Source of the DNA: Saksenaea vasiformis B4078
Taxonomy: Eukaryota > Mucoromycota > Mucoromycetes > Mucorales > Saksenaeaceae
NCBI GenBank assembly: GCA_000697055.1
Contig: JNDT01002122.1
Span: 24,966 to 88,965, forward strand
Reading direction: 5' to 3'
DNA: 64,000 nt
Numbering within the stretch: position 1 is the first letter of the stretch; every line of letters starts with the position of its first letter. The translations under genes and the position numbers were made by a program. The notes under the pieces were generated by a model. That model saw nothing but the letters and a program-made list of their open reading frames with translations. It made no database searches and was not told the origin of the DNA. Of this stretch, positions 1 to 42,789 are shown piece after piece.

Positions 1-153
1 TGTGACTGAATAAATAGCATTCGTGTGAGTTTTTTTTCGTCATTCTGCATTTTCTTTCGTTTTCTCCTGTTGTATCTCTTCCCTCTGTCGATGAGCACAT
101 TCACCACTTCCTCCATGGCTCTCTGCTTACCCGGTAGCCTGTGAAACAGCTTT
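1..153 (-). pseudogene. Fanzor (TnpB-like nuclease) fragment, cut by window edge
   Basis: On the minus strand this stretch reads GKQRAMEEVVNVLID followed by GKRYNRR and a lysine/arginine-rich run. It matches, residue for residue in pattern, the segment GKQRAEAELINILLD of the better Fanzor copy near 42,055-42,120. In that copy the segment lies between RuvC-I and the later RuvC motifs. The frame just upstream (minus-strand open frame at 127-366) is different and I recognise no motif in it, so either an intron or a frameshift separates them. The rest of the gene would lie to the left, outside the window. The identification rests on similarity within this window plus general knowledge of the Fanzor family. 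It is a fragment, so activity cannot be judged. Confidence 0.5.
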
Positions 154-548
154 CTGCTGTGCATTAATCATAGAGATCTGTCGATAGCACATGGAATAAA
201 ATACTCCTGAAAACTCTGTATGCTGCAATGGGGAAGCATTTTTCGCCTGTAAAAACTGCAAGACTTCCTTGAGATATGGCTTTTGAACACGTATTTGCCA
301 GAATTTTTGGAGGGATCCAGTGCTGAATAAATCAATGCCATTGGCCAGCGCAAAAAGAGCGTTCACTAAATGTAAATACGATTACATATGAGAGGATGCG
401 GTTTAGTTATCGTTGCATGGTCTCCGGATTAGCGTATGTCAAATTATGCATAGTCTATATGGAGATTTGGTATGAGAGCAGTTGAGACAGAACTCCCTTC
501 TCCGCTGACAATTGTCTTGGTTCCCAGAGCAAAAAGTTTATTTCTACC

Positions 549-1690
549 ATGATCGCTAAAGTCGTTGACGAAATAAGAAGAAACAAGTTTCGGCCGATTC
601 TGATACCGGCTGGAGCGAAGCGAGCGGCAGTTCTACCTAGCCCTTCAGTGCATCAAGGATTTATCGAAGTAAATGCAAAGACCCTTGGGCGGTTTTTGGG
701 AAGCAGTACGAAAGGGAATGACTTTGAATCCAATGCAAGGCTCTTTTACAAAGCATTCCGGTTCGAAAAACTCGGATTTAAAAGGTGATATAACAGCTGT
801 TATGACCATGGATTTTGATTTCTTATGTGGCATCCCTGTCCAGAAGATCTCCTTCAGGGAAAGAAGGGCCAGTGTCTTTTTACTAATGTGATCATGTCTG
901 ATGGCTATTCAGTCAACGTCATTTCTTCAAGGAAGAAGCCTCCTCCGCACCATACAGTCAATTTGGATCTTGATGATTCACAGCCGCAGAAATCGACCAC
1001 CTTTTTGATCCTTGCGCTTATGATCCTGGTCTCACTAATGAGTAATTTGTGTTTTTAGTTAATGCTGTATAGTAGGAAGTCAAAATTGCAAAACTCGCAG
1101 CCATTTGGTATAACCATCCCAGCCTGTTTTACAGATCGTCACAGACGTAACGTTAGGGCAACGAAATGTGCCTGCGCGAAGAACAATTCGGTGGCGTCCT
1201 CTAGGTCAACACGATCCTGGTGGCAGGATGCCACTAATAGTCTTTGGCAATGCAATGTTTTCGAATGTCAAGGCAAAAAGCCAGGGCTTGCGAAAACTTG
1301 TCGCGCAATGCTAAAAAGATACGAACACTCAGGAGAAATGTTGATGCTTGAGATCGATGAATATAGTACATCAAAAGTGTGGCAAGGCTTGTTTCCATGA
1401 CCAACACTTAATTATGTCTTTTAGGTTTGTTGTAGGTGCAACAGAAAGAATATGGAAGACAAAAAGACGGTGGAGGGTCAGAGTCTCCAAGGTGTCCAGT
1501 CGTGCAAAAACTGCAAGATACTTTGGCAGCGCGATTTAAACGCAGCGAAGAATATGTCCTTGATTAGCGAGTCGGTGTGGAGCGGAAATGGACGCCCACA
1601 AATATTTCAACGGCCGCAACAAGATAGTTAACATGTCACCGCAACGAATGCGGGTTGGACTTTTACGATGAAAGCATCTGTAAGATTCTC
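549..1690 (+). pseudogene. Fanzor (TnpB-like OMEGA nuclease) relic, frameshifted
   Basis: Fanzors are eukaryotic RNA-guided DNA nucleases related to bacterial TnpB, carried by transposons. Pieces appear in order on this strand but in different frames. FTNVIMSDGYSVNVI-like sequence at about 880-925 parallels FTNIVRTDGYAIDFV of the 41-kb copy. A RuvC-I-like YDPGLT has its Asp codon at 1022-1024. An MLEIDEYSTSK motif lies at about 1342-1376, followed after a frame change by CGKAC. Finally CKNCKILWQRDLNAAKNM gives the second cysteine pair of the zinc ribbon and RuvC-III, with the Asp codon at 1533-1535. Several frame changes and stops show that it is not translated intact, although some breaks could be introns. 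It lies next to another Fanzor fragment on the opposite strand. Family assignment is firm; the boundaries are approximate. Confidence 0.75.
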
Positions 1691-2249
1691 GTCGCGGAAT
1701 ACGGAAAATACTCATCATTAAACGCTTGTGATGCTTGAAACGTTTCCTTGCATCGACACAAAACCAAGTTGAGATCTGAATAAGGCCAATCGAAGAGGTA
1801 GATATGTGAACAATATGTGTGCATCTGCAAACTCTTTATTGAACTACGTAAACTTGATTTTTCATTAGCGCAGACTTGGTTTTCAGTCGATGCAAGTTGA
1901 CTTTCCAGGCAACGTAGACATTGTTTTAAAAACAGTAATGATGACAGTTTCTCTTTAACGGGAAAAGGAGGAAGCTTAACTAAGGATGCGTTAGGTGGAA
2001 TCTTTGCAATATAGGCAATAAAAAAATAAGAAATGAAGCAGAGGCCTGCTCGCCACCTGTCTTGATATCCTTTGTCAGATATTGGGTATGTAACAGTAAT
2101 AAAAAAGAAGTTAAAGGGGAAGCGTTGCGTGTGTGCGTGGTGTGTAAAAAGAGAGGAAGAATACGAAAGAAGAGGTAAAAGTGGAAATGTAGAAAAGATA
2201 TAAAAATAAGAAATAAAGAAAATAAAGAAAAGGAAAAACAGAACGGATA
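1691..2249. other. Intergenic, no gene seen
   Basis: AT-rich DNA between the Fanzor relic and the stop codon of the CTD phosphatase. Purine-rich stretches near 2,100-2,240 probably include the phosphatase 3' untranslated region. I see no coding pattern or RNA gene. Confidence 0.4.
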
Positions 2250-3688
2250 TCAGTTTGTAATCAGGTTGGGATCAAACGTACTATCCAATACCTGTGTTAC
2301 ATCGTCTACTTCAGTCAGGTCCTCGAGGAATGCAACAAGATCACTTAGTTCTGTGTCATGCGGGTCATTGAACCAAGTAGATACAGGGACAGCATTGGCT
2401 GTGTGAAATATATAACTTGCTGGAGAGTTGTCAAGTATAAGTGTTGCTGAAAGATCTCGTCCGAGTTGTGATAAATCCTACAAATGGTTGGAATTAGTTT
2501 CTCCTTGAATTGGTAGATCCCCTTACTTTAACATAGGTACCCTTGTGGTTAAAGCATGATTCGCGGAACAGCCTATGCCTGACCACCTTGTGAACATCCA
2601 GCATATCCAAAACAGGATCGGCGTACTAATAACAACAGGTGATGTCAGCCGTACTCATCGCACCAAGCACGCACTTTTTTTTTTTTTTTTACCTTTGCTA
2701 AGCTGGCAGTGAAAACCACAATCTCATACATTTCACCCATTCTACGCATGAATTCATCTACACCCGGTCTCTTCAGAACATATACATTATGGTATTGTCG
2801 GTCTATCTCGACTGGTACAATAAAATCAGGGTTGGGAATGATCTACCCCAGTTGTGTTAGTCCAAGCTAAATCAAGAAGATCATTCACACTCCTACCTTG
2901 AACGAGCTGTGCACCAGCGTCTCGTCTAGATCGAGAACCAGGCATTTTCGGCCGCGATCTTCGGGAGAAAGAGGTGGCAACAACCACATGGTATGGCCCT
3001 GCCCACATAAAGAAAGATTAGGTTTGAGTTCGATCGCCGTCAGGCTCTACCTCCGGTGACGATTGTGGTGCAGACACTGGTGTTGCAGATGTAACTTCCG
3101 AATCGCCACTGGCTCCCTGCTCTGCTGCAGACGAAGGCACATTGGTGGGAATATTTGTATCGATTTTAGGCACACCCGATTGTTTCTGCTCATGTTTCGA
3201 CTCTGGCAGCGGAACGGGAAGTGCTTTTTCTGCAATCCTTGCACTTGTGCCTGTTGTAGTTGTGCTCGCGCGACTGTGCCGGTTGCCCTTTTTGCTCTGC
3301 AAGACAGATGATTTATCGCTGTTGTCAAGAAATGAACCGGCACCAACGGTGCAACAAAGCAACAAAGATAGAAAGCCGCCTTTGGAACCAAAGGAAGCTT
3401 TCAACGAGCCGCTCCTCGAGTTGGGTCGACTGCCGTCTGAAGTGGTTGGTAAAGGAGACTTGACATATTCAGGATTGATATGTTTCGCTGGTCTTGTTGC
3501 TGCTAAATAAATAAAGGAGTGAGTCCTATTTATTTTCTCGGAGAAGTCGCATCGGGTTTTGCACACTCAATACCTTTATTTTTGGAGGGTTCCTGAGGAG
3601 CTACCTGAGCAAGATTGATGGAAGCGTTGTTTGTAGTTTTCGACAGTGAGTCGTCTGGTTGTGGTTGAACTGTTTGTGTTTGCGACAT
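2250..3688 (-). CDS. SCP/Psr1-type CTD phosphatase (HAD superfamily), 6 exons
   Basis: Predicted 381 aa from exons 3574-3688, 3051-3502, 2897-2998, 2693-2842, 2527-2625 and 2250-2477. The catalytic domain is the C-terminal half. It has the HAD signature [13 protein letters not shown] (nucleophile and acid Asp), then [37 protein letters not shown], and [18 protein letters not shown] with the second Asp pair. This is the order in human CTDSP1-3 and yeast Psr1/Psr2, which dephosphorylate Ser/Thr on RNA polymerase II CTD or stress-response targets. The N-terminal half is low-complexity and Ser/Pro/Thr-rich, and contains [10 protein letters not shown]. This resembles the palmitoylated N-terminal Cys motif of Psr1 (plasma membrane) and the similar motif of SCPs, but here it is internal rather than at the extreme N terminus. 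All introns have GT donors and TAG or CAG acceptors. The start is the first ATG of the open frame. The substrate is inferred from family only. Confidence 0.93.
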
Positions 3689-5400
3689 TGGAAGATGAAC
3701 GTCAAAAAGCGAAATAAGTGAAGGGCAGAATGGGTAACCTTGCTCAGCCCAAACAGTAAGAAGTTAACTTGATGAGATCGACAGTTGCCGAAGACCGTCG
3801 GAAAAGGATCAGATTGAAAGTTGAACAAGTTTCTTTGTTTCTCTCTTTCTCGCTATTATAGCATACAAATCCGGATGACAAGCCTTTTACAAGAGAACTC
3901 GAGCTGGCCCGTGTTGGAGTCAAAGACAAAAGAGCAAAAAGGACGTGCAATACTGATTTCTAAAAAAGGGTTTCTTTCGGATACTCAGAACAGCAGTCAA
4001 TCACCGGCCATTCTCCGGACTGTCCGTACCGAATTTTTCGTTTAAGCGGAAAGCGGCCGGAACGCATACTGGCATAAGCGTTTCAGTGCGCAACCGTGAG
4101 TGCCTTACCTCGTAAAGTTGTAGTTGATCCACATTTCTACTGATTGGTTTGTAAGCAATAGACCGCTACCAGCAATAACAATTGCAAAGATGCTTGAGTG
4201 CGAGATACTGGTACTTCCTTATTATGGTTCTGGATGGTTATGAGAACTTGATTTGGCAACAAATCGATATCCTTGTTACATCAACTTGGCCCTCAGATGG
4301 ACATAAACTCCATATAGAATAGAGTAAAGATTCATTTATGGTTCGCAGATGCAATAGCAATCGAGTATCAATTCATTTAATCGCAAGGGATACTTCCGGG
4401 TAAGGATGACGTGAAGGAAGATTCCTCGTGGTGAGTACCAGTGGTAAAAGGAACTCATTACGAAGGACTCGAAGTAATGCGACGTCTGGTGATCTATCAT
4501 ACAAGGTGAGTGATGCTGAGCGTGACAACATTCACTCGCCTAAACAATGGGCGTAAAGTAACGACACAGCCAAAATGGCCTAGAGGAAGGCAATGCAGCC
4601 TAAACAGCTGACAAAAGGCAAAAGCGACATTAATCGTGTGTTCAGTCGAAGCGTGCACCGCGAAGTCTTGTAGTAAAGAAAATAAAAGATCAGATGTCTC
4701 TCAGATACTCACCACATCCCGTCACCTTTTCTTTCTATTAGATGAAGAACCCTACTGCTGACATGAATACAAGATGGGAGAAAGGGAGTTACTACATATG
4801 TTACTAAAAGGTGAATCGTAAGTGCTTGTAGCAACTCTCTGGAAGCAATATAATACGCAAATGCTGGAATTGGTTTAATATAAAGCTCCAATGAAAAGCA
4901 ATCTTTGGCAAGCATAAGTTGTGCACGAACGAATCTGTTCGAGGAATTCTAAAGGACACTTCACTATGAGATACTTTGTCGGTCGGACATTGAATATTAT
5001 GCATCGCCTGTTTTTGAAACAAAATGAAGAGAATTTCAAGAGACACTCGCTTATTTGACAGTGATGCGTTCCATTGGACTACTTGCTCAGTATTATCTCA
5101 GTTTCTTCAGGGTCTATAGCCAGGATTATGCACCAAGACAAGTGTTCCAACTCGTGCGTCAATGAAAACGTGCTAGTAAAGTAGGACTTAAGATAGACTT
5201 TAGGTAGCTCATGCGTTGTGTAATCTGTATTCCTTAGAAGGTCTGTAGCTCTTATATTCAAAATCTAATTTCAGCGATTTCACACGCACTTCGATCATGG
5301 CTTCTGAACGAAAAGCTCAAAGGTTCCGCGATTTACGTATATCGGCTCCAATTAGGGGGCCTTCAAATTTGTACCGGCCCCCTGCTCCATCTTAGTATCT
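3689..5400. other. Intergenic, no gene recognised
   Basis: About 1.7 kb upstream of the CTD phosphatase. Only short open frames without recognisable domains are present. The part near 3,690-3,900 should hold the phosphatase promoter. No RNA gene or repeat was recognised. Confidence 0.4.
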
Positions 5401-5886
5401 CTTTCCAATGAACTCAACGCCTTTGATCAGTTATCGCTATAAGCCTGAGTTATCTGAATTTACTGTTTTAACAGATGGCTATAAATCAGTTATAATATCT
5501 ATGACAGAAAAGCATGGTGTTTCTTCTATCCGTAAAAAACAGTCTACTCATCTTCTGGCAGCAAAGCTACTTCTGCCATCGAAGGATCTGCCCGTAAGCG
5601 CCCCGGAACAACGCCCAATTTGTGGAAAACTGTCCATGTTTGCCACCACTCTGGTTTGCCGGAAATGAAGGGTCCAAAGAAGATGCGAAAAGACCTCTTC
5701 AAAAACAAAGCAAAAAAATCCAGTGCAAGGCTCGTCTTATTGTAGTTTGTAAGAAAGCAACCCCGAACATCGTCACCATTTCGCTTGACGGTGAGCATAA
5801 TCACGTCCCTGGCTCTTCCGAGCACATTCAGCATCTTGGCCTGTCAGAAAGTATGAAGGAGCGTATCCTCTTTTCGTACGCATGAA
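5401..5886 (+). pseudogene. Transposase-type zinc-finger (FAR1/FLYWCH-GCM-like) fragment of a MULE-like element
   Basis: Two overlapping frames encode one broken domain. The first reads VHVCHHSGLPEMKGPKKMRK (about 5,630-5,690). After a frame change near 5,715 the second reads CKARLIVVCKKATPN, then GEHNHVPGSSEHIQHLGLS (up to about 5,850). Cysteines before a closing HNH, followed by a short 'PGS...LGLS' linker, is the pattern of the zinc-binding DNA-recognition domain at the N terminus of MULE-type transposases and related FAR1/GCM/FLYWCH proteins. No DDE catalytic core follows; instead a repeated non-coding segment begins at about 5,887. An upstream open frame (5,408-5,540; contains LTDGYKSVIISMTEKHG) may belong to the same element. 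The element class is inferred from the domain only. Confidence 0.5.
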
Positions 5887-6428
5887 GAATTAGTAAGAGG
5901 GGAAACAATAAGAAAATACTTTGAGACTCCTGGTAGAGGATTATTCAGAAAAAGATAATGATTACAGATGTCTACCACTACTATTAATACTGTTCAAATG
6001 CTTATTGAATATCTTAGTAATCAGAGGACGCGTAAGCTCTGAGTAATCATCATGGATCGATGATCATCCATGATTGTTAGTGTCAGGTCGGAGAGCTGTC
6101 ATCTACAGTAGCTGAGTCTGAATAACAACCCCATTGTTCAGGGACAGAGACGTCTGACCAATCACTGCGTCTATGCTAAGATCGTAATCATCGTAATTGT
6201 CTTGTCACACTAATCATAAGATAGGAGATGTCGGAGGGTATCTTAAGATCATGACAGAATCCTATTATCTTAGATTGTAGCTATCCTTTGTTAGATGTCT
6301 GAATAGATCAGGTTTATCTGTCGATGAAGTGCCGATGGTATGAGAAACTCAAATAAAGATCGTTTAGACTTAGTGGATGAAGTTGTATATAATGATAATG
6401 ATATGTCAAATACGACAACGCAGAATAT
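5887..6428 (+). repeat. 540-bp dispersed repeat, copy 1 (inverted partner at 45,465-45,995)
   Basis: Reading this segment forward and 45,465-45,995 in reverse complement gives near-identical sequence with scattered substitutions and small indels. Shared landmarks include AATAAGAAAATACTTTGAGA, AATCAGAGGACGCGTAAGCT, GTCAGGTCGGAGAGCTGTCA and CTATCCTTTGTTAGATGTCT. By eye identity is roughly nine bases in ten. The repeat begins where the MULE-like zinc-finger fragment ends, so it may be the rest of that element family. It has no intact open frame. Both copies begin with a shared reading ...EELxRGExIRKYFET, hinting that the left end was once coding. Confidence 0.85.
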
Positions 6429-6466
6429 CCTTGACATACCTTCACTATGGGAAAAAGCATAACATG

Positions 6467-6578: not shown

Positions 6579-6799
6579 AAAGAAAAGGACAGGTCTCTTT
6601 GTTCATACACGTGTTTGCAACTGTATTCAGTATCTGTTTACTGAAACCATATTCATACTTGTTTTCTTTCACTTTCTTTATCATTAGACGTATATTAGGC
6701 TTCTAAGAGGGACTTTCGCTTGCTACAAAGGGGGAAAGACCTGTCCAGTTGGAGATGGGGTATGTATTACCTGAACAAGAACCCCCGAGGCTTAGACCA

Positions 6800-7870
6800 G
6801 CGGCGGCTTGGGGCCTCTAGGGTCATCGGTATCGACCCAGGTACGATAACACCAAATGCAGCTAACGATGCAGAATTATAACATACTATGTAGGAATAAG
6901 GTCAATTGTAACAGCAGTCGACACAAACGACAGCCTCTGAGAAGAGGAGTTCCGGTGTGTACACACGAGCTCTGTTACAAATCGATACTACCAGTGAGTT
7001 ACAGAATGTATTACTAACATAGCTTACGAGAAAATTTCAGGACACAATCCTTGTTCCGGTGGGGGTTGCAAAAAGAGCTCAAATCGCGAAGGGTCGTAGG
7101 GATAGAACCTTACTATAGCTTACTCCAGACACACCCGCCCAAGTTGCGTCGTTAGCGGAGTTCCAACGTTATGTTGGGACATTAAGCATCATCAAGACAA
7201 GGTTAGTTAGCTAATATATTTACTGTATTACTAATCCCAGTAGATTGATGGACTTCAACTACAAATACCAACACAGGGCGCGGCGATTTTTGCTCAAACG
7301 GGCGAGAACGTCGACGATGGAACGGCTCAGTAATGCGATCGTCAGAAATATCCGGCCGACAGTATGCCTAGGAACGCCGTATGTGTCGCTGAAGTTACTA
7401 TAGTCAACGCAACGGCCCATATTCAAGACGACAAGACCTAGTAGGAAAAGGGCCAGAGATCTTACGGAGAGAAATCTCCTACGGTCCCTGGTCGCTTATG
7501 GCGACGCAGACCTTAAGCCGGGCTATCGAGGCCATGCGCCGATTCCCGTTAAGGTCAGCATACCTTTACAGGTCTTGAAGAAAGGTCCTAATATGATCTC
7601 GTCACCAGACCTTCCGCAAAAATATAGCGAGCAAGGCGCTAACCCTGCTGGTTGACGAATATAATACCAGCAAGATTTGCTCCAGCTGCGACGAGCAAAC
7701 TGAACAGCTTCAAATCCCAACAGCGATTTGCAATCATCGGTACCCAAAGTTATGGTCTGGAGCTGTACTTGTGCTGATTGTATTTTTACAGTACCAAGAT
7801 GCTTCGTTTACGTGGGGATAGGCACCGATGCCGCTATTACTTGGACGACAACAACCAAGCAATGCATCAC
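6800..7870 (+). pseudogene. Fanzor (TnpB-like nuclease) relic with RuvC-I, RuvC-II region and zinc ribbon
   Basis: The fragments follow the Fanzor order. RuvC-I RVIGIDPGTIT is at 6819-6851, with the catalytic Asp codon at 6834-6836. MDFNYKYQHRARRFLLKRA (from 7247) resembles the helical segment after RuvC-I. VAYGDADLKPGYRGHAPIPVK-type sequence spans 7491-7553. LLVDEYNTSKICSSCDEQ (about 7646-7700) contains the first zinc-ribbon cysteine pair. A decayed CRYYLDDNNQAM (about 7830-7866) corresponds to RuvC-III, where family members have W-x-R-D-x-N-A-A. The motifs fall in different frames with stops between them, so the gene is dead unless several introns are invoked. The GHxPxPVK segment resembles the 16-kb copy more than the 41-kb copy. 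No N-terminal part was identified. Confidence 0.75.
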
Positions 7871-7989
7871 ACCGCACAGTGCGATGAGCGGCGGCCTAGG
7901 GGTAAGCATTACTATATTATGGAGGTTTCTATACGAGCTGTGACATTATAGTGCCTCCACACTACTCGACGAATGTATACCTGGTGAGA

Positions 7990-10432
7990 GTCCGCCCCCC
8001 GCCAGCACGAAGGGGACGCACCGGGACAGGAAATTGTATGAACTTTTGTTAGGAGTATTACAGTACTGACTTCTACTTTTTAGCACTGGGTTCGGGATGT
8101 TAACACAGGTCGTAACATCCGCAGGATACTGACCCGTTACATGGAGAATGACATGACGCTGGAGTCCCGGCCTCTGTCGTTGCAGCAACCGAATCAAGTC
8201 GCTGAACATGAATAACAACAATAGCGATAGCTTTATTTTCTTTTGCTGCACAATTTTCTTTGCTTTACAATGTTAAATTTCACTGTTTTGCTTCCCTTTC
8301 GCTTTCTGATCGGTACTGTATCACATGCTTTGATAAGCCGCAATGTTGCCTGGCTATAACAAACATTTCTCGATTGCCTTCTCTTCAACTCTCAGCTGAT
8401 CTTCGTAATTGTTACTTTTTGCATTGGATAATGTACCTAATGTCGTAGCATAATCTTTGTAATCCGCTATGTGGGCGATGTTTGCTTAAAGTAGAGTAGA
8501 ATAGGTGCTATTTTTTATTGGACAATGCCTTCCGCCATAGATCTGATGGTGAGACATTCTGTTTCCTTCGTCATATTTATTTGCGTGAATCGATTGAAGT
8601 CTGACCATACCACCAAATCAACGGAAACCAACTATCGTTGTTGTCACAGTAGCATCTTCATCCATAAAACCAACGGTAAAATGAGTTCTTCTAAGTCACC
8701 TGTCATCGCTATCTTAATTATCGCTGATTCACACAAAAAACCATGGAGCACTAACCGAAGCACTGCTGCAGGTATCAAAATGTATCCCATCTCCCAAAAA
8801 AGGAAGACGTCTAAGCTATTATCAATATTGTTCTCAAAAATGGGTACCCATACATTTTACTAAATTAATCGTGTATTAGTGTTTATGATTGTATATGTTG
8901 GTTGTTGCTTTACCTGTCTTGTAATACGCAAGCGGAAGAATACTATTTCAGAGACGTAGGGATAGTTCAACTGCAGAGCTGTCCTTCAACTTTCAGATTC
9001 ACGAGTCACATAAACATGTACTGAGCTATCCTGGTTTTATGCATCATTACTTCACACATCGCTGTATCCCTATGAATTGCTCTGCCTTGAACTTGATCGT
9101 CGCGGTTTCATACGCTTTTTACGTTGCGTAATCTCAGTGTTCATTGAAAGCGCATTATCAATCTGATTGTGATAAGACATCGACTTGTGATGTCGAAAAC
9201 TGTTTCATTTTGGATGAGGGTGCCTTCCCATCCGGTGGAACCTGTGACTAAAGTTTCTTATTTTTTACACATAATATGTCTTTCAGTCCGGCTATTGCAC
9301 GCAAACCTTGAGCATCAACTTCGTTAACTGTATTAAGAATGTGAGTTGTCTACGTGTTGCATCTCATTTATCTCATTCTTACACCAGTCGATTTAGACAA
9401 AAAGCTGTGTGGGAACTGTGAGTGTCAGAATGTGGAAGATGTCTTGGATGGATCAACGTGTCTTGGACTGCCGCCAACAATTCTGTTTCTTGTCTTCGAA
9501 CAAACATATTATCGGTAAGTGCTCTGTGGTTCTGCACAATTCATAACCTCCATTTATACGCATACGATCGCAAGAGAGCACTCTCCCGATGCAGATATCT
9601 CTCAATTGGAAATGATATCAAGTGGTGTATAACCAAACTGTTTAAGCTCCTTTTCCAAGTGAGACGATCTTTTCTTTTTTCTTCGAAAAGAAACACATGT
9701 ATTTATCTTCTTCTTAGGCATTATCAGTCATAATTTCATTCCACGTTGAATGATGATTGCAATACTGGTAACTTACAAGGAAAGTATATTCTTTTTATGT
9801 CAAGGAACAATTAACTACAGCTATTTCTTTAGACTCCTTTAACAACGCTGCGGAGATGTTCTACTAAGATGTGACCCCATAGTTAGGTGCGAGTCTCCGC
9901 AGTGGTTGGCCTTAACCAGGTCATCTTTGGTAAGTATTACCATAATGTTTAACAAATATTTATTTGTTTTCTATAGTCTTGGGTGATTGCATCTGCAGGA
10001 ACTCTTTGTAGTTCACAGTGATGGTCACCGGTGTATGGCAATCGAAGTCCTGGTTAAGGTTTTTTTTATTTATCCACTTATCAAGTGGTAAGGCGGTTAG
10101 AGAGCTGCCATCCAGCCTCTTTGTTAGACCCGGGTTTTGTCCTCTTGTGGAATGAAGGCAGTGTTGCAGCACCTGTGAGGTAAGGAAATGACATGATTGG
10201 TTGATTTTTATTGACGTCGTTTGCTGGGTGCGCCAATGGGTGCGTGTAGCGGAGCTCGTAAACAGCCGATGCGTGCCGGAGCGACACTCGTAAATGGCCG
10301 ACGCGTGCCGGCCCGAGGAATTATTGACGATCTTAACAAGTCCACGCTGAACTTCAACGCCCAAAGTACCTTAGTTCTTCACTTAACCGAGATCGGATCT
10401 GGAAAACATCAATTTATTGTTCCGATTACAGC
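7990..10432. other. Intergenic, no gene recognised
   Basis: About 2.4 kb of mixed-composition DNA between the Fanzor relic and the PHD-finger gene. Short open frames at 8,525-8,863 and 9,422-9,733 lack recognisable domains and convincing splice context. The last 250 bases should contain the promoter of the downstream gene. Confidence 0.4.
10251..10312. repeat. Two tandem copies of a ~30-bp GC-rich unit
   Basis: The unit CTCGTAAA-(C/T)(A/G)-GCCGA(T/C)GCGTGCCGG occurs twice in direct tandem, about 31 bases apart. It lies 120-180 bp upstream of the ATG of the DDT/PHD gene. It is GC-rich against an AT-rich background, so it could be a duplicated regulatory element. That role is inference from position. 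Confidence 0.6.
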
Positions 10433-14450: not shown

Positions 14451-16040
14451 ACGTGTTTGGTGGTGTATTGCAACAATCATGTGGATGCTCTTAATGAAGA
14501 ACAATTGCGCCGTGCAGCATGTTTTCAGCCCAGCTAGTTCTTGTTTTCCTTTTTTTTCGTTTGTTTCTCGACTACACCAAATTAACAATACTCGCCTTCA
14601 ACACCTCGACAAAAAAAAAAAAGAAAATTTCATAACACCGTATTCTTGCGCCAGTTCTATGTTCTTGTATTAACGACTCTTCCGATCCAGTCAACAACTG
14701 AAGATCGACTTAATGCCCTCTTAAAAGAAAGGTAACGTAAAATAGAATAGACGTGAGCAAACTATTTTAGAAGCGCCTGCAAAGAAGGCTATGCCACTTA
14801 ACTTCGCGAAAGAAGCTCATCGACAATACTTCTTTTTCGCGAACTCGCGTCGACATTGATGATCATCTCTCGACTTTAATCAGCTATAATCAACCGTAGC
14901 TCCGCATAAAAGTCCCTATACCTTCTACATCTAGCTTTGATGTAGAACTGAAGAAAAGAGAGAGAGAGAGTACACATATGAGTGCTGAACTTTGAGTTAC
15001 GCCTCGCAATGTGCAGTGTCATACAAGCTGAGTGGTCCCTTTATTATCCTAACCCGGGCTGAAATGCACTGGGTCCAGCTATCGATTGTGTAACCGATAA
15101 TGTGAAACTGAAAATAAATTTTGCGTCGATGAAGAAGATGTGTATGGCAAGTACATCCGTTCGTTCCAGCGTTTTTTGATGGGGCTTTGGTGAAGAGTGG
15201 AAAGTTGCTATGGCAATGAGTCTGATTCTGATTGCCATCGTTGGCTGCTCTTTCTGCTGCTGCCTTCTCGTACTGCTTCAGCTGTAGTCTATCTCCCTTC
15301 TTCTGCAGCCAATCTGTCATAGAAATGCGCTTGAGTTTCTTGGCCTTCAATCACCTTCGGAGTCCTCACACTGACGAAAACCGTTTCTCGAAACGATGGG
15401 GGGAAAGTTATATTATTTTGAACAAATGCCAATGCATTACATTTAGAAACGGGATGCAGGCACTACCAGGCACTCAGGAACTCTTACTCTTCCGAACTTT
15501 AGTGTAAAGATGAGAGGTCAGGACTTCACCAATTTGATACTTTGTTGTTGATTATTTTTATCCAACTACAAGTGAATTCATAATGCTTTAATGGTGTAAC
15601 TGATCTGTTACGAAATGGACGATAAAATGAAAATGCTCCTAGTCAATTGATAGAGATATTCAAAGAAACCTTGTGACGAAAAGATTTCGCAAGTTTGCCA
15701 GGTGAAACAGCGACATTGTTCTGTTTTCGCTGCTATCAACCACTCAAACTTCTATATTTTACAGCTGAATCCATCAATGTGAATGTGTAATACGAGTTAC
15801 ATCTGAAAAAAAGTCTAGTGTTAGTGACCTATTCTAGATTTTGGCACCGTTGCTTGCCTTACAGCCCTTTGCATCAGTCAAAAAGCTACTCAACCGCCAC
15901 GTAGGACCAAAAGGCAATCCAAAGGAATTACATATGAGAGCACATACCCGAAGATTTAAGCACGGGGCGGGCTTTCTCCGGGGACACCCCACCCAATGGC
16001 TTTCTATGCTTGCTTTTCGAATTCAAATGGCCTAGCACCG
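14451..16040. other. Intergenic, no firm gene
   Basis: Contains the Tra2-like 3' region (A-run near 14,612) and about 1.4 kb of unassigned DNA. A minus-strand open frame at 14997-15350 starts MKAKKLKRISMTDWLQKKGD, charged and helical-looking, but it ends in low-quality sequence and no splice model extends it. I do not call it a gene. Confidence 0.35.
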
Positions 16041-17263
16041 TCCTTCTAGCGCATGTGCCAGAAGATATGGAGGATGTTCCTTGCGGCGTTCACGTCCTTA
16101 TTCCAGATTGTGCGACATGTTTGGCAATGGTTCACAGCATGAAGGGCTGGTCCCAGCCGGTCAAGAAAATCTGTTTCCGCATGCACAGAGGACATACTTT
16201 GCTGAATCTGTTGTGTATGCTGACCACGCCTGCAAAGGTTAGAGCACCCTTGGCTGGTCCTGAATTCATTGATGAAGACCATAGTGAGGTATTGCGAGAG
16301 TTTGCGGCGAAAAGTCTTGACAGGAACTGGTCGATGTCCCACCTGCGTATGACTGAATTTCGCACTTCCATATGCCACAACGATGTCTTCTCTCCTGTTC
16401 CTATCGCCCCTCACGCGTATACATAGTTCATGAAGTGCCCGCTGTGACCAATGGTAGGTGGTCCAGCGCAGCGTTCGTTCTCGGGTATAAACTGGAAACG
16501 ATGCTCGAGATGCGGAAAGACGGAGCGCAGGCTCTCCACAAACACTTGCTGGTTCACCGCCTTTGATGTGGTAATCCTTGATTAGATCTCCTGTATGTCG
16601 GGATTGTGGATATGATGCGTGCGTCGCCGCGAGGAAGACTTGTTGTGGAAAGCGAGTTCATGCCATTCCTTCGCGGATATATGCACGTTTTGCCTGGGGA
16701 CGACCTCTCGACCAGCGCAAGCATTGCTTGTAACTACCAATTCTGTCACACCTGCGTCTGCCCCAATCACTCGGGTGTCAGGGCCAATAGGTACGTTGGT
16801 TGGGTTCAATGGCGCGCGTTTTGGTCGCTTGGGTCTTGTATACAATACGCTTGTGCTAATTCCGTCTGTGCTGATATGGCACCTGAACTACTTTTGATGT
16901 CTAACTCGATCTTCGTCTTCAGAGCCAGGTTCCTGGACGCCTCGGAGTCTGGAGAAATCGAATGCTTCTGTCCACCACCTGATCCTGTCAACGTGAAAGC
17001 CATGTCTCGAGTCAATCAGTCGGTGCGCAGCCGGATTGTCTCTAGTAGCCCATAGCAGTAACTCACGAAGAGCTCGGGCGTCGATATCAATGTATCGCCA
17101 CAGATGGGATTCTTTGACAGTATCTCGCATTATGACACTTCCAAGGCGAACGAAGGACCAACGCTTAACCCGTTTGCTAAAATGGATGGATATGTACAAC
17201 AAGGAGTTGGTTACTTCACGTCTTGCAGCGTACTCGAACACCTGGTTTAAACCAGCTCTGTGA
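16040..17263 (-). pseudogene. Fanzor (TnpB-like nuclease) relic, second lineage
   Basis: Three minus-strand frames in the right order carry one gene. 16888-17241 has RVKRWSFVRLGSVIMRD and SHLWRYIDIDARALREL, an N-terminal Fanzor-like part. 16582-16845 has RuvC-I VIGADAGVTELVVTS (Asp codon 16756-16758, retained). 16046-16414 has EDIVVAYGSAKFS, GHRPVPVKTFRRKLSQ, then INEFRTSQGCSNLC and CQTCRTIWNKDVNAARNI (zinc ribbon and RuvC-III). Stops and frame changes separate the parts, and the first cysteine pair is spaced CxxxC rather than CxxC, so it looks inactive. It differs from the 41-kb copy in the PVKxFRRxLSQ block and in NEFRTS against DEYNSSK, implying a separate lineage. It appears more GC-rich than its flanks, consistent with separate origin. 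Confidence 0.78.
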
Positions 17264-17264
17264 G

Positions 17265-18846
17265 TCCATGGAAGCTCTGCAGTCTCTAAGAATGGTATAT
17301 GTCAAATGTTTGCCGTAGCTGTGGATCAGCAATTGGCCTAGGCCGATGGACTGTCGGCCGAAGTAATGTTACTGCCCAGAGGGTCTTGTCGATGTCTCCT
17401 TGAATTCCCGTTGAGAATTAATACATGAAGCTAGCATACACCGTTAGACTTACGTGTTGCTCCATCGGAGCCTCTCTGTCGCGCTGAAAACTGGCCGTAG
17501 CTTTATTTGTCAGTTTTGGTCTATCCATCCTCCGTTATGAGCATGTATAACGATTTTGCAAGAGCACTTACCAAAGACGTTCAGTATCAATAACGGGAGT
17601 TAGAAGAAGAAGAACTCATAGATGGGACGGCTGCATTTAAGGTTTTTATTTGCCACTTTGTTCTCTGATTTCAAGTCACGAGCAACGTCAAGTACAGGCA
17701 AATTTCAGGTTTCTTAGTCCAAACAGCCTTGCATATGACGACAAACACCTTTCAATCGCCATCTATAACCTACGTACCTGTTTGATAGTTGTTATTGCAG
17801 TATAGAAATATATGATCTAAATGATTTTCACCCTGTATATTCTTATGACTGAATGGTGATTAGATTAGATCACATCACACAAAGTTGTTGATGTACACGC
17901 AGAGCTGATAAAGTGACCTTTGCTGCATAACATGTCTAAAGCTGGAAATCGCAGCAGAATCGAATCACAGGAAAATATGCTGGACAGTAGCTCGCCTAAT
18001 ATTAATTGTATGGCAACACCGGTTGGACGCCACAAACGTTATTGTTTGGAAATCCTGATACGTTGTAGGCAGAGAAGTCAATAAAATCGCTACGTTATCC
18101 ATGAAGATGTTATTAAGCATCACCAATGAGCGAAAATACAATAATTGGACATAAAGATATATCTCCTATTAGAACCTTTCGTACCTTTAGTGCCTTTTAG
18201 CAACTGGTAATATCCTGCTCAGTTTCGCTGTCATGTTGCTTCCAATACACAAGTCAAATATATGTGTAGCCACTGCAGCAGTTGCAGTTATTGCTTGCCT
18301 TCGTATTGGCAGAAAAGTAGCAGAAACAGAATTTTAGGCCTGTGAGCAAATTCTCAGATGTAGTCTGCGTTTTGAAGTCATATAATCATCGTCAAGTCTG
18401 CAATCGCTATGTAGCCTTCCTTTCAAGATAATAACAATTGCTTTCAGATGATAATGAAGCTGTTCCATTATCACGAAACGATTTTCATTTGATTCATGCA
18501 AGATGTTGGCACCTCTGGTTTTACTGTATCGGGCATAAGCCGAAAGGTTGGTAACTAATTCCCGCTGGTAGTCATGACTGCCAGGTGCGAGAAAGCGAAA
18601 ACATCGCAGAACTACTCGAGAAGTAGAAGTAGAAGTAGTCACCATTTCTGGCTCCAAGGAGTAGTTTCATAAGTGCTACGCGCTTCTAAAATGTGTAAAT
18701 CAAGAGCAAACAAGCAGCATTGCATTTAGTTTGCTCACATTCGACTTTTCTTTCAGAAACTCACTTTCTGGAGCCGGTCACAAACTCGCGGTGAGTCCAG
18801 CTCATGACCCCGCCGGCAGTTGTTGTGAAAGGGGGTTAGGGTCAGC
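17265..18846. other. Intergenic, no gene recognised
   Basis: About 1.6 kb between the Fanzor relic and the Ugo1-like gene. Only short unsupported open frames are present. The last 200 bp should contain the promoter of the downstream gene. Confidence 0.4.
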
Positions 18847-32982: not shown

Positions 32983-34544
<1,562 letters not shown>

Positions 34545-34617
34545 CTAAATAAAAAGATGTGATTCAGTGCATATTCTAGTTACTGTTTATTGCTAGCAGT
34601 CATTGCAATATGTTCTG

Positions 34618-36324: not shown

Positions 36325-36659
36325 ATTTACCTGTACCGATCTTGGTATACACATGAAAAGTGGAATGAACAGCATATCCTGATGGAAGATGGTACACCTG
36401 TCCATCGTAGCAACGTTGCAAAGGAATGGTTGCAAAAGAACAATATACCAAAGTTAGACTGGCCAGCGCAATCACCCGATCTTAATCCAATCGAAAACAT
36501 TTGGAAGCAAATGAAGGATTGTATACAAAAGAGAACAAGACCTTTACAGGAGGCGTGGTATTCTTTTTAACGTAAATTCATGGAATAAGGTTATCGAATC
36601 CATGCCTGAACGGATAAAAGCCGTCATCAAAGCTAAAGGAGGTAGCACTAGGTGGTAGT
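36325..36659 (+). pseudogene. Tc1/mariner transposase C-terminal relic (DDE_3 type)
   Basis: One frame reads HILMEDGTPVHRSNVAKEWL and LDWPAQSPDLNPIENIWKQM (36,377-36,520). These hold the second Asp (MEDG) and the Glu/Asp partner region (NPIENIW) of the Tc1/mariner DDE catalytic core. After a frame break near 36,570 another frame continues VIESMPERIKAVIKAKGGST and ends at a TAG (36,657-36,659), the usual transposase C terminus. The first catalytic Asp and the N-terminal helix-turn-helix are not found upstream. It is therefore a 5'-truncated, frameshifted relic. I did not locate terminal inverted repeats. Confidence 0.85.
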
Positions 36660-39600
36660 GTTCCGGATAGCATTGCTATCTGGCATTGCCTCCTGCAGTT
36701 ACCATGTTTAACACACTGCAGTACTGCGATCATTCGCACCACATGCCACTTTAAACCACCTCTATCTGAGCTTCCCATATCATTGTAGTACTGGGTAGCA
36801 TCAAGCAACGGAGCAAAAAGATCTCAGTGAAACACTGGAAAATAAGAGTAAGGATATGGATCTGCACAAGTTTTAAATCGTTGATGAAGGCGCTATGTGC
36901 AGTACCTCATAGTAGTGGCGGCTATGAGATACAATCAGTACTTTATTCGCAGATTTAACTTCTTGCTATGGTTTTGAGTGACATAGCCGCTACAATGTCA
37001 CCCAAATTTCGCTGTGTTTAGACCTGTGTATACACTAGATTCTATGATACAGGTAGTTAGGTTTAAGCAGAAGCATAGAAGTCGCTCGAATAATCTCTAA
37101 AGATGTTGAATGTATCTGAAACTGGAGCAAGTGAAGATCGTAGTTTGATGAGGTATTTGCACCGAATCGGCTGGTTGCCATGACGATGAGAGAGAGAAGT
37201 TTTTTATAGTGATAAATCAATAGCTGTATGGCTTCTGTTGCTACGAATTAGTGCCTGATCTCCTGAATAAAAAGAGTTTATGTTTTAGCTGGTATCACAT
37301 AGACACCGTGTCTGATCCATGTCTGAATTTAATTTGAGAATTCTTTACGATGGCTACTTTTAAATAGCTGCTTTAGTTAATGTAAAAGTCTACGATCTGT
37401 TTCGGGATATCGAAATGTGGCAATGTACTATTTTATAGAAGTTTACATGCTACCACATAAAGATGTCTATCAAGAAATGAAAAAGGACCGCGCTATAGAA
37501 AAATGGAGTAGTTAACACAACTATTGGGCTTAAATTCCAGCTGATCAGTTATCGCAAGGACACCACAAATGTGCTATCGGAGGTATGAGATAACTTGAAG
37601 CACAAAGGATCAAGCTATCTATTAATTCGTACGAGGTGCGCCATTATGAATGACGAATGGATAAAAGCGGTACAACAAGAAACAAATGATATATGGTGAG
37701 ACTCCTGTTTATTCGGAAAGAGATAGAAAGGATGGGAAGCCAGTTTCCCGCTACTACTAACGCTAGAAGTAAAATTCTTTATTAACGGAGATTCTACATC
37801 TGAAACGATGCAAATTAGGTAGACAGAGAGAGACATAGCTTATCACGCTCGTGTTATTGCTATAGTGAAGTACCACATGAGGTATAATCTCAAAAGTTAA
37901 TGACATTCATGAACATGTACCGGTTTTGGGTGACTGAGGAGGTAAAGCCTACCCATATGTCTTTTATTGTTTATATGTTGCCGCTCCTCGGCCTCTTCAT
38001 CCTGTCAGCACGCCAGACAGACCCTGTCACCCGGCTTAAACCGTCGCCATTGGCTCTATTTGTTCACGCATGGATGAGAATCAGAAATGTTACATGTTCT
38101 CTGTGTATTACCGTCGAAAATTCGGGTTTTGGTTTTGTCTCGTCACATATGAGACAAACGTCCTTGGGGGAGGAGGGGGGGAGTTCGCCCCTTGCACGGC
38201 GGAGGTTAATTCTTGCGCGTTTGGTCATAGTGTATTGGTTCATACCGATGTGATGATGGTAAATGTAAGTAAAAAATTTACAGATTTACATAGCTTTCAG
38301 CTCGACTTGAGTCTGCAAAGCCAACGTTACAGTTTTTGATAAAATGCCGTTCTTGTTCTGGAAGTAAACATACAGCACCATATCTAGAGTATGCGAGATG
38401 CGTTTACAGACGATGACCAATGGTCAGAGACAGCGAAGCTGAGATGAGGTGCTTCAAGAAAGATGGTGTGCTATCAGACAGATGTACTGTGGGACCTTGT
38501 TTTATTCTCGAGAAGAGGCACCTCTCCTTGTTCTTGCAGTAAAAAGCTATTTACATGGTGCCTGAGTTTTAATTACAGTCATGTGTATACGAGCGAAGTT
38601 GTGAGCGACATAGCCTCAAACAAAATGCGTACGGGGCATAATTGTACATCAAAATCAAGTAGATATCGGCCTCTGAAGCTTTTTAGATTATTGATCTTTT
38701 TTCTGTAAAAATAGAACGTTTACATCAATATTTCTTATTCCAATTGCTGACTACATGATATCTACAAAAAGAATTCCACAAACTACTCCAAAAAAGTTCT
38801 TCTCATTTTTCGGTCACAGCTCACCACGTTGTAGGCCGCTTCTCCTTCTCATAAGTTCAATGCGTGTGAATACTGTTCAAAAGTTTGTAACATCTCAATT
38901 GAAATCCGACATTGTGTAAGGAAAGAGATTTTCATTGGGGTTTTCAAGGAAACTATCTTTTGACAGCCCGTTATCTTTTGAAAGCTGCAGTAGAAAACCA
39001 TGTTTCACAAAGAATAGAAGCAACGTTTAAAAATTTTGTAAATACATAATTATCTCGGTTTCTAGAATATAACAAATAAATATGCAACGCCTGAGTATCC
39101 TGTGCTTTGAACAAACAAAATAAAATGACTTGGTCTGTGTCTTCTACATGATGCCACGACCTAGAAATATGCACGTCCATATCTCATATCTCAAATATCC
39201 ATATGCGCTTTAGTGTACAGGGCTATTTGTTTCTCATTTGCATTGCATAAGTTTCATTGTATCTTCCATCATCCTTCGGTATCTGAACCTGAGACTACTC
39301 TGTGACCAGAAAGAAAAGTCTGTAAATTTCCATAGAAATACAACGCGTATTCCTTACAATTTTTGTGGTTAAATCGTAGTACGTCTGCATGTGACTATAC
39401 TTCATGTTTGTCTCATATGCCATTTTCCGATAGTATCATAGATAAATTGATGTGTTTTCCATATGCATGGATATTTACCGTGTTTGAGCGTATTATGTCA
39501 TATATGGATGTTCCAAACCGGCAATGTCGACACCATTCTACTGGAATTGATTACTGAAAGAGATCTCGTAATTAATATATACTGTACACGAATAAAACAT

Positions 39601-41170
39601 CCACAATTGAGTATTATAGATTTCACGTCTTTTCTTTTCTTTTTTTACAGTCTCGATAAGTAAACTTATAGTGCGCCACCTTGGCAAAGATACGGTACGT
39701 CGATCTGTTTACAGCAGACATTAGGATCATGATACTCCACAATTCAAAACATATACAAACTGAACAACTTTTTAGCTCAGCCCAACTCGTTCTAGAATCG
39801 CTAGCATTATAGTATCTTATACATGTCAAAGGCATACAGAATGGCGCATTCTATATTCCTTGCATCCAGAATAAAATCTTTCTAACTTCCACAGTTGGTA
39901 AGTTTACCTAGATCTGAGATCTTTTCATATACGCTATTACTGAAGAATTTCAAAAGGATATGTTTGCCAAAGCCGAGATCTAGATAAACACTTCCACCAG
40001 CTACAGTAATATTTACGCTAATTCGAACGTCTCATGGCGTCGGTATACTGGGGCTTGATTGGTGATATGTCGATAAAAAAAAAGTAACCATAGTGATTTA
40101 TGTAGGTATTCCATACAAATTATATATTAGAGTCATTATTTTGTAAGTTACCGGGAAGGTTCTATCTAACAATAGCAATTAGCGCCCTCGTGAATCTTTG
40201 AACGATGAAATCGATTTTTTTAGGTTTATGCTAAAAAAATCATCCCAAAATTGGTAAACGCAATATCGCTCCTCGAATCAAGATAGTAAATGGACGCATC
40301 GATGTCTGTAAAATCTTTTGAGTTCTAAACCAATTAGTATTATCTGAACATTCGATTCGAAGACATTACCCTTGAAGGAGAATGCAACGGAGAAGATTGT
40401 TGGTAAATGTAAATATTGTGAACCTTAACTGCTCTGTGTAACCAGGTGTCTCTTCAGGCTATGCACTCGGTGATTGACCTACTTAGGCTAACGTACTTTT
40501 CTTACCTAATGTATTGATGCTTGTCTCAGTGACTTTGTCAATACAGACGATTGCAAATAGATGGAAAGCATTAACAAAAAACAGCTCTGAATCACATGTG
40601 CCGTTATGTCATGCAGATTTTCTTTTAAAGAGTGCCACCTGCTGCAGCATAGTCACTGCTTCGGCTGCACTATGTATACAGATGCCTCATTTTGATAAAG
40701 TCGCAGCGTAGCATTGCTATCATTGCAATAAGTAAAATTAATAGTAGATTCGACTGTTTCCAAACTTCTATGCTCTAATGTTCTTTAGCTGTTAATGTTT
40801 GTGGTTAACGTAATATCTTCTAAATAGCATTTCTTCTTGCTTTAGTCCTAACAAGTATATAGCCTCGCTACACTTCGGAACCACCACAAAGAAAAATCAG
40901 TGACATATCTTGGATTATCGTTATCACCTACCTCGGCTACTTGTATGTGTTGCATGGGGTTTGTCCCTGCAACTTTTGCTTCTTCGAAATGCAGGTGGTC
41001 GCTCATTACAGTGATTTGCCTGGTAGTAGGCCACGTTCCTAATGTTTCTACTGGCGTTACGATCTCGGTTCCACACGGTACTACCGATCACGATTAGTAA
41101 CAAGAATTGTGGAAGCTGTTAATTCACCTCTACCGGCTCCTCTCAACGCTGAGCGTTTAACATTCCAATC
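36660..41170. other. AT-rich gene-poor stretch, 4.5 kb
   Basis: No conserved gene or RNA. Short open frames (for example 37900-38253) carry no recognisable domains. Composition and the flanking transposon relics suggest old repeat-derived DNA. Confidence 0.4.
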
Positions 41171-41172
41171 TC

Positions 41173-42789
41173 TTGAGTACCTACGTCAAACTATCAATAC
41201 AAGTCGTATTCAAATCAACAATTCCATCTAATGCTTTCGTCAACATGAACAGTCGCGTTCAAGCGACATCCTCCGAGAAGACTACTTTCGTCCTGAATCA
41301 TTTTACATTTGTCAAGCAACAAAAGGTTTTCTCTTTGGCGCCGCAGTACGGTTTCAAGCGCCAGTATGCTAGTATCGATATACAAACCCTTCGACAGCTG
41401 CTTCGTCAGAGCGGTGTTCAGTTACTACTGTATATACCGAAGCTCGCCAACAGACACAAGAGCAACATAAACAAGACACACGGCAATTCGCAGCAGTATT
41501 TGACTTCAACAAAATCCGGTGCAGAAGGTAATTAATATCTGGATCAAGACAAATTTATTTTAGAGTTCTCTAGTCTCTTAGAGGACCTTGAGTCAGATGA
41601 ACCTCGAGAACTGTTCACAAACATAGTGAGAACGGACGGTTATGCAATCGACTTCGTGTTTGCTCGCAAAACAACAGAGGAGAGTGAATTACCAGCTTTG
41701 GATGCCACGGACTTTGATGAATGGGAAGTCAATAACATCTTTGACCTATGGGGAGCCAATCCAGGGATGACAGAGATCTACGTAGCTAGCAATGGCCATG
41801 GAACAGAGCCTCATGAAATTCGAAAGATGTCCACTGCTGAGTTCTATATCATGGCTGGGTACAAGAAGACCAATGCGAATATCTTGAGAATGAAACGCGA
41901 AGATGAAATACTGGCTATAGAACAGGGGATAACAACTCGGAAGACAGCAAATCTGGAGACACTGGCAACGTGTCTTGAATCAGTATTGCCGAATCTGGAG
42001 TAGTTGTTTGAGTTCTATGATCAAAGGCTTACAGGTTTCCGGTTTTTGAATTACATTGGGAAGCAACGGGCTGAGGCTGAGCTTATCAACATACTGCTTG
42101 ACGGTTGTAAAAATTATAATCAACGTGGTCTGAAGCAGAAACGGAAGAACTGGAGAAAGGAGAAAAAGCAGCAAAAGTGCGTATCTTACAAATCGTAATA
42201 AGTCTCTAACTAATCTTATCTATAGGAAACAGACGAAGGCAAAGAAGTATGTCGGTTGTACTTAGCAACGCTGTTAATTCTCTTTGGTTGGTAGGCGACC
42301 ACGATCACAGAAACAAAAATGGCGAAAGGTACCGCTTCGACCGGCGACCGACAGAATACCTTTGATTGCATTTGGAAATGCCACGTTTCAAACAAACATG
42401 CGCGGAAAGATTTCTGGCTTAGCGGATCGGTGTTGGGTCCTTCTTAAGAGAGCGGAGAATGCCGGCCTGCTTGTTATGGTGAACATCGATGAATACAATT
42501 CTTCGAAGGTAACAATAACGAGTATATAGGCATATTTCGTACTAAAGAGGATATTTAGGTGTGCTCGAGATGTCAACAGAAGAACATGGAAAACTTACGG
42601 CTGAACGAAGAGGCGTACGGAACGTTGTATAGAGTGCTCGGTTGCCAAACCTGCGGCACGTTATGGCAACGCGATGTAAACGCCAGCAAGAACATACATC
42701 TGCTCGCGACGACTCCTTCACGTGGTCTAAGTTCGACCGACAGTTTTCCAACGTTGACAATATATCACTGTAACAAAAACAGTAGATGA
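41173..42789 (+). pseudogene. Fanzor (TnpB-like OMEGA nuclease), best preserved copy, one in-frame stop and RuvC-I Asp-to-Asn
   Basis: A nearly full gene that can be read through plausible introns. FSLAPQYGFKRQYASID (about 41,330-41,385) and FTNIVRTDGYAIDFVFARK (41,616-41,670) are N-terminal. RuvC-I is IFDLWGANPGMTEIYVAS with Asn (codon 41758-41760) where the family has Asp. A stretch GKQRAEAELINILLDGCKNY is next. After two likely introns comes LIAFGNATFQTNMRGKISG, then VNIDEYNSSK, an intron (42511-42558) and VCSRCQQK. The gene closes with CQTCGTLWQRDVNASKNI, the zinc ribbon and RuvC-III with its Asp at 42673-42675 retained. A TAG at 42001-42003 interrupts one otherwise continuous frame. Fanzors cut DNA guided by an RNA from the transposon end. 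This copy appears disabled at the active site. It ends 146 bp before the stop of the minus-strand oxidoreductase. Confidence 0.85.

Follow-up and report, generated by a model that had tools for sequence, protein, structure and literature searches.

Six remnants of Fanzors, the eukaryotic TnpB-like proteins, lie within the 64-kb window of Saksenaea vasiformis DNA analysed here (C500:24966-88965, within a 38.7-Mb genome of 666 contigs). Four of them, the main copies, are substantial, and every one of these is broken; the other two are short pieces. The remnants are relics of Fanzor1 transposons of several lineages in a Fanzor-rich genome, a kind of element already known. The fullest explanation that we can offer is that the window forms a small graveyard of DNA transposons that carried Fanzor1, whose nucleases would have been directed by a guide RNA, which would have been mobilised in trans and whose copies would have been kept through nuclease action; taken as a whole, this seems to us likely. 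On the question of why a eukaryotic cut-and-paste transposon should carry an RNA-guided nuclease, the genome constitutes a natural data set, with hundreds of Fanzor loci of several lineages, precise element ends, a predicted motif and a matching mariner family. The motif and scaffold predictions are testable in a single screen. What is usefully added to the known kind is a predicted motif, a mariner family with a matching terminus and the conservation of right ends.

Fanzor remnants of the window and their lineages

The six remnants are listed below, where TNB denotes a match to the Pfam domain PF07282 (TNB / OrfB zinc ribbon), with its E-value.

3..167 (-): Fanzor-like fragment, about 50 amino acids (aa) of the RuvC middle segment (KQRAMEEVVNVLIDRGKRYNRR)
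819..1634 (+): 0.5-kb copy, decayed Fanzor of a B-like lineage (motifs; TNB 3.2e-4)
6699..8330 (+): 7-kb copy, decayed Fanzor of family F (motifs; TNB 1.4e-3; identity to C580)
15798..18004 (-): 16-kb copy, internally deleted family A element (motifs; TNB 1.4e-7; identity to C419)
40927..41082 (-): sixth Fanzor fragment, RuvC-III end WNRDRNASRNI (protein match and custom profile)
41082..42860 (+): 41-kb copy, 5'-truncated B-family Fanzor (motifs; TNB 5.1e-7)

The TNB profile matches stop-free pieces of all four main copies, above its curated cut-off in the 41-kb and 16-kb copies and below it in the other two, so that profile searching bears out the Fanzor assignment made in the initial annotation of this DNA. 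With a custom profile, six pieces of the four main copies score independent E-values (i-E) of 1.5e-34 to 4.6e-8, against a best of 0.26 in the reversed window; these scores are partly circular because 4 of the 18 segments that built the profile are the window's own copies, and the last piece of the 7-kb copy (8084-8212) reached only 0.021. Regular expressions located C..C..[LI]W..D.NA at 1503-1544 (+), 16085-16126 (-) and 42643-42684 (+), and DEYNTSKICSSC at 7654-7680 (+). The initial annotation had correctly paired the 16-kb and 7-kb copies by GHxPxPVK (16316-16339, -; 7530-7553, +) and the 0.5-kb and 41-kb copies by a GNAxF block (1246-1260 and 42374-42388, both +). Its statement that Fanzor motifs recur at five intervals holds, by regular expression, for the four main copies; the fifth interval, 1-153 (-), carries none of the named motifs and neither a DEY nor a zinc motif.

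The main copies also show the Fanzor hallmarks described in PMC10711439, namely the DPG of RuvC-I, an alternative glutamate and, for Fanzor1, a TDG in the WED domain. DPG is kept in two of the four (IDPG at 7 kb, YDPG at 0.5 kb) and is altered to NPG in the 41-kb and to DAG in the 16-kb copy, where the relatives C455 and C525 read ADPG. The alternative glutamate stands six residues ahead of the zinc finger in all four, two of which need an exon join, marked here by a slash (IDEYNSSKV/C at 41 kb, NEFRTSQGC at 16 kb, DEYNTSKIC at 7 kb and IDEYSTSKV/C at 0.5 kb). Likewise present in every main copy is the [TS][TS]xx-C4-...-RD motif defined in PMC3627910, with KD for RD and CxxxC for the first CxxC in the 16-kb copy, and with a second half that needs an exon join in the 7-kb copy. 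TDG occurs in two copies (RTDGY at 41 kb, STDG at 16 kb) and as SDG in the 0.5-kb copy; it was not found in the scanned stretch of the 7-kb copy. For these Fanzors we infer RNA guidance and nuclease activity.

Each copy is damaged in its own way. The 0.5-kb and 7-kb copies are split across frames and contain stops, and some of these breaks may be introns. In the former, SDG (for TDG) lies within 876-977, DPG (AYDPGLTNE) near 1022, the alternative glutamate (IDEYSTSKV) in 1059-1397 and the zinc ribbon with QRDLNAAKN in 1425-1628; the break following SKV may be an intron. In the latter, IGIDPGT (about 6834), GHAPIPVK (7530) and the motif at 7654-7680 are followed by an intron-like gap and by VRDVNTGRN in 8084-8212. 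DNA identity of 79.8% to C580, over 721 columns and up to the end of the compared stretch, carries the 7-kb copy to at least 8330, and C580, its nearest relative, is likewise split. The 16-kb copy has kept its right end (TACATCTGAAAAAA at 15798), has lost its left end and reads GADAGVTE (with DPG changed), STDG, NEFRTSQGC and NKDVNAARN; against L010 and L011 it consists of aligned blocks in three reading frames with three deletions between them, and its DNA identity to C419 is 88.7% over 1304 columns. The 41-kb copy, which starts near 41082 and ends at 42860, reads RTDGYAIDFVF, GANPGMTE, IDEYNSSKV/CSRC and QRDVNASKN; its catalytic RuvC-I Asp has become Asn (relatives read GADPGMTE), and stops and frame changes interrupt it over a stretch in which the frame of C455 stays open for 262 aa. 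These limits correct those first given for the 7-kb, 16-kb and 41-kb copies.

The fragment at the window's left edge has 50% identity over 28 aa to the 41-kb copy (window 42043-42126; E 8e-5). It is the weakest of the six because 14 Fanzor queries from the genome, compared with stretch L029, matched only part of the 0.5-kb copy and left this fragment unmatched at E 0.1. The sixth fragment is also weak (51.6% over 31 aa, E 0.001; i-E 8.2e-4, on the scale on which the reversed window reached 0.26). It ends where the 41-kb copy starts, at the 5' break of that copy, and thus two broken Fanzors abut there. All five intervals first described as decayed Fanzor genes hold Fanzor pieces, and the missed fragment at 40927-41082 brings the total to six.

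The window copies belong to at least three lineages and perhaps, as far as their sequences indicate, to four. In a tree of 18 hand-chosen rows, which covers the RuvC-II region through RuvC-III, starred branches place the 16-kb copy in family A and the 7-kb copy in family F, and the 41-kb copy falls with C455 at a support of 89/85, below a star. As a group the window copies need four changes on this tree and the starred branches force at least three; the initial estimate of at least two lineages was therefore right that they are distinct and too low in its count. The 0.5-kb copy is a long branch with at most 46% identity to any row, the best row being the 41-kb copy, and we claim no deep branch order because the program flags long branches that meet. 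Descent of all remnants from one recent Fanzor family, to which their common C-terminal motif set might point, is extremely improbable: segment identity is 22-46% among the four window copies, as against 81-92% to outside relatives for three of them (C525 and C419 at 92 and 90% for the 16-kb copy, C455 at 91% for the 41-kb copy and C580 at 81% for the 7-kb copy), and 0% of 200 bootstrap trees unite them. The tree, the stops, the frame changes and the deletions together support the earlier view of distinct lineages with local decay.

Across the genome, PF07282 gave 137 matches, and the protein queries gave 68 (A), 154 (B41), 82 (F, the 7-kb copy included), 82 (C) and 138 (D). Pooled by coordinates, with 150 of the 154 B41 matches contributing, these searches yield at least 450 Fanzor-like loci on 296 contigs after a 5-kb merge, a minimum, given that scoring in each search was confined to the best candidates. 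The loci span at least six query lineages, and 77 were seen by query F alone and 100 by query D alone. Their density is 0.74 per 64 kb; four census loci fall in the window. Around the remnants, 8 of the 10 open reading frames (ORFs) tested are eukaryotic genes by their Pfam matches, which are RRM, mitochondrial carrier, prenylcysteine lyase, PLP aminotransferase, forkhead, zinc dehydrogenase, RPN1 and NIPA. Bacterial TnpB insertion sequences brought in by contamination would account for the structure matches of the family B protein, which are weak and fall on Cas12f, Cas12m, TnpB and a designed relative (E 0.001 to 0.05) and not on Fanzor1. The eukaryotic genes around the remnants, the intron-like breaks, the alternative glutamate, the TDG motif and the spread of at least 450 loci over 296 contigs make contamination next to impossible in our judgement.

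Ends of family A and the GACTA motif

The family A element measures about 5.9 kb, and its copies at C525:130268-136124 and C464:36721-42635 have both ends in common. Besides the Fanzor it encodes one other long ORF (L030:2663-3322), which lies upstream in the same orientation and has no Pfam match. The termini read CATCGGAAAAAC... and, reverse-complemented, CATCTGAAAAAG..., giving a terminal inverted repeat (TIR) of CATC[GT]GAAAAA with TA at the junctions and a carrier that is not of the IS607 type. At the right, CAGATG followed directly by TA occurs in 16 of 18 ends, after which the flanks diverge; the distant right ends at C27 and C306, neither of which reads CAGATGTA, stand outside the 18 counted. 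No transposase was found inside the element, as might be expected if the copies were host-domesticated genes or members of an unrelated zinc-ribbon family. Such an origin is very improbable, given the precise, repeated element ends in differing flanks, the stops, frame changes and deletions, and the joint occurrence of the DPG, alternative-glutamate, TDG and RD motifs; we regard the copies as transposon relics.

On the left, GACTA precedes the element at 8 of the 11 junctions read (C525, C464, C390, C195, C420, C321, C12 and C610), separated from ATCGG by one or two bases in seven of the eight and by six in C390. Within the window, only 75 of 7940 TA sites on both strands (0.9%) are preceded by GAC, and the enrichment has a P of about 3e-15 for 8 of 10 junctions, a post hoc value from which the distant relative C459 is left out. 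The motif has no mirror on the right, where none of the 16 flanks after CAGATGTA starts with GTC. The relative found at C610 (77% over 969 nt) carries the TIRs and is flanked by TA at either end, with GACTA at the left end alone. Its joined flanks are open in all three forward frames and hence uninformative. In C390 the six bases between GACTA and ATCGG are TTTGTC (L070, C390:118830-118900), and the same six follow TA at the C525 right end; this match may be accidental or may be a relic of guide-matched targeting.

The precedent comes from Spizellomyces, in which a conserved CA flanks the element on its left, TA duplications are putative and the experimental motif is CATA (PMC10432273, PMC3627910). 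By the same logic, GAC plus TA predicts GACTA as the target-adjacent motif here, and by this analogy the left-only GACTA may be the footprint of a motif that the family A nuclease needed. It is also possible, although we favour it less, that GACTA forms the extreme edge of the left terminus of family A, or reflects the site choice of the transposase, and has no bearing on an RNA-guided nuclease. A frequency of 8 in 11 is near what an element end would show, and no empty site was recovered. What disfavours this alternative is the variable spacing of GACTA, which lies one to six bases from ATCGG among copies, together with its one-sidedness, since a TA-centred target preference should be mirrored as TAGTC on the right. 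We therefore prefer the nuclease footprint.

Right ends as candidate guide-RNA scaffolds

Two stretches between a stop codon and the element's right terminus are candidates for the guide-RNA scaffold.

15798..16009 (-): family A right-end region after the stop codon
42787..42860 (+): right end of the 41-kb copy, from the stop codon to the terminus ...GTCAGGCAACTGTA

In Spu-1, the element of Spizellomyces punctatus that carries SpuFz1, a conserved region of about 75 nt from the stop codon to the right end is the RNA scaffold (PMC10432273). The right end of the 41-kb copy resembles it as a conserved stop-to-terminus stretch of like length and place, and the last 91 nt of the copy (window 42770-42860) have 34 matches in the genome, the copy itself included. 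With gap columns left out, the 41-kb copy is 92% identical to C376 in the right end (66/72, last 74 nt) and 62% in coding sequence (383/618, 41554-42171), as against 76% (52/68) and 84% (489/582) to C455; the right ends of C376 and C455 agree at 52/68. At sites where the 41-kb copy agrees with one relative alone, that relative is C376 at 12 and C455 at 1 in the right end, and C376 at 26 and C455 at 155 in the coding sequence. Thus the 41-kb copy and C376 are alike in their right ends and C455 stands apart from both, which, from these alignments, would mean either that lineages have exchanged their right ends or that the C455 clade has changed fast.

The family A region after the stop is recognisable at C27 (71%) and C306 (67%); no Fanzor is among the matches listed near either (PF07282 and family A query), and both resemble ghost loci. 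The right ends at 42787-42860 and 15798-16009 each resemble a short intron near the terminus (GTAAG ... branch-like site ... YYYCAG). For family A this idea was set aside because the TIR explains the CAG; at the 41-kb (B41) right end a terminal intron could still apply. A scan of three B41 copies for TACAGTC as a left end gave matches, none of which was judged a terminus, and the left ends of families B and F were not found.

A candidate mover, a proposed mechanism and known Fanzor systems

The sequence TACATCTGAAAAAC has five matches in the genome (C275, C437, C525:242513, C570 and C660), and all but the one at C437 lie exactly 162 bp from a match to DDE_3, the Tc1/mariner-type transposase domain, in the same relative orientation. 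At four loci, TACATCTGAAAAA (13 bp including TA) occurs with DDE_3 at this constant 162-bp offset, and only one end is seen. These loci look like a Tc1/mariner family whose terminus has 13 bp in common with the family A right end and which would thus be a natural source of transposase in trans, so that this family is the likely mover of family A. A search with the terminus pattern returned 48 rows (13 forward and 35 reverse, with several rows per site), against 12 and 1 in the reversed control; beyond the family A ends and the five sites above, it reached C112, C277, C326, C546, C578 and C610, of which C610 alone was read. Among the matches listed, no DDE_3 overlaps the C525, C464 or C610 element.

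Two further loci bear on transposases of this type. At C391:201653-204219, an open DDE_3 frame is followed about 1.9 kb downstream, on the same strand, by a family A right end. The stretch read there contains no Fanzor coding, and the locus may be an element that bears a transposase and ends as family A does. At C538:134800-142700 (L049/L052), a frame that we take to be a Tc1-type transposase N-terminus ends where the C538-C461 homology of B41 elements starts.

In the mechanism that we propose, each element would have carried a Fanzor1 gene and, beside its right end, a noncoding stretch that was probably the guide-RNA scaffold; the guide itself would have come from the DNA flanking that end. 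Family A, with its TIR, TA junctions and no recognised transposase, would have been moved by the Tc1/mariner transposase of elements with the same terminus. Excision would reseal the site as GAC-TA plus the right flank, that is, as motif plus guide match; the Fanzor would cut the resealed site and the element would be copied back. We infer that recutting, and with it survival, would be confined to copies at such sites, so that copies at GACTA sites would be retained preferentially. The wider proposal, that Fanzors serve as retention factors for cut-and-paste Tc1/mariner elements and thereby imprint a left-only motif, with right ends exchanged between lineages, is offered tentatively, and we think it rather doubtful; the basis for exchange is that the 41-kb copy pairs C455-type coding (84%) with a C376-type right end (92%).

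Several results weigh against the explanation as a whole. A phmmer search with the family A protein against solved structures returned no Fanzor at E<=10, and its database search placed 0 of 7998 scored candidates at E<=0.001. The intact relatives first predicted elsewhere in the genome proved to be better-preserved ones, and no fully intact copy was shown; the best family A frame, uninterrupted over 772 aa, has DPR at RuvC-I, and its start lies beyond the N-terminal part that C525 and C464 keep in frame. The right ends of C442 and C391 are without CAGATG followed by TA, and the left junctions of C173, C174 and C459 are without GACTA, C173 and C459 having GAC immediately ahead of ATCGG. An empty-site search with the joined C525 flanks recovered only the element's own two flanks and no third locus. 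Finally, a consensus fold of the family A right end was not supported among 19 sequences: the RNAalifold covariation term was unfavourable (+0.52), 4 of 51 pairs showed a double change, and single-sequence z was -1.94 for C525 and -0.09 for C27.

The proposed system can be set beside several known ones. Like Mucor circinelloides, Rhizopus oryzae and Phycomyces blakesleeanus, which have 10, 4 and 3 Fanzor1 families per genome (Bao and Jurka 2013, PMC3627910), this genome has several Fanzor1 families in DNA transposons; unlike them, as far as their description goes, it has at least 450 loci in 38.7 Mb. Mariner-type Fanzor carriers with TA duplications are known in other hosts (PMC3627910). Spu-1 has TIRs, putative TA duplications, no transposase inside the element and ghost loci without the gene (PMC10432273, PMC3627910), and Spizellomyces has 42 Fanzor loci and 134 ghost loci (PMC10432273). 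Family A resembles Spu-1 as a TIR element with TA, a left-only motif and no recognised transposase inside, and differs in that its motif would be GACTA and not CATA and in its length (about 5.9 kb against 2.1 kb). The family A protein has no phmmer match to SpuFz1; query D matched only 8gkh (SpuFz1) among solved structures, at E 1.6, and query C matched unrelated chains only.

Parasitella is mucoralean. PpFz1 of Parasitella parasitica is a solved Fanzor1 with an Asp-Glu-Asp site, whose Glu lies between the last strand and the TNB domain (PMC11423790); the remnants are, like it, fungal Fanzor1 with a Glu ahead of the TNB zinc finger. In solved-structure searches at E<=10, families A, B, C and D gave no match to PpFz1. 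In its high number of Fanzor loci the genome is like those with the Helitron-borne CRe-1/2/3 and with CMe-1A, where CRe-1 (Chlamydomonas) and CMe-1A (Cyanidioschyzon) have about 150 loci each; those belong to other or unclassified transposon types, and the account in PMC3627910 gives no matching lineage set in TA elements. Fanzor copies per genome can reach hundreds (PMC10711439). Among the entries listed by literature searches, no report of this set of Fanzor lineages was found.

The window holds one further transposase remnant, unconnected to any Fanzor copy.

36358..36534 (+): Tc1/mariner-type transposase remnant (DDE_3; C500:61323-61499, translated; E 4.1e-11)

Rfam at gathering thresholds and ARAGORN gave no match in the window, and a search for viral contigs with a B-family protein gave eight pattern matches, none confirmed. 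A dispersed repeat of 500 bp occurs in inverted orientation at 5883-6383 and 45508-45990 (88-97% complementary by block). Inverted arms at 62212-62312 and 63743-63843, 86% complementary, flank a 16-bp minisatellite (62791-63041) and are perhaps a small TIR element. The segment 61360-61547, a dispersed repeat, has 94% identity to part of L028 (C533:20000-29000).

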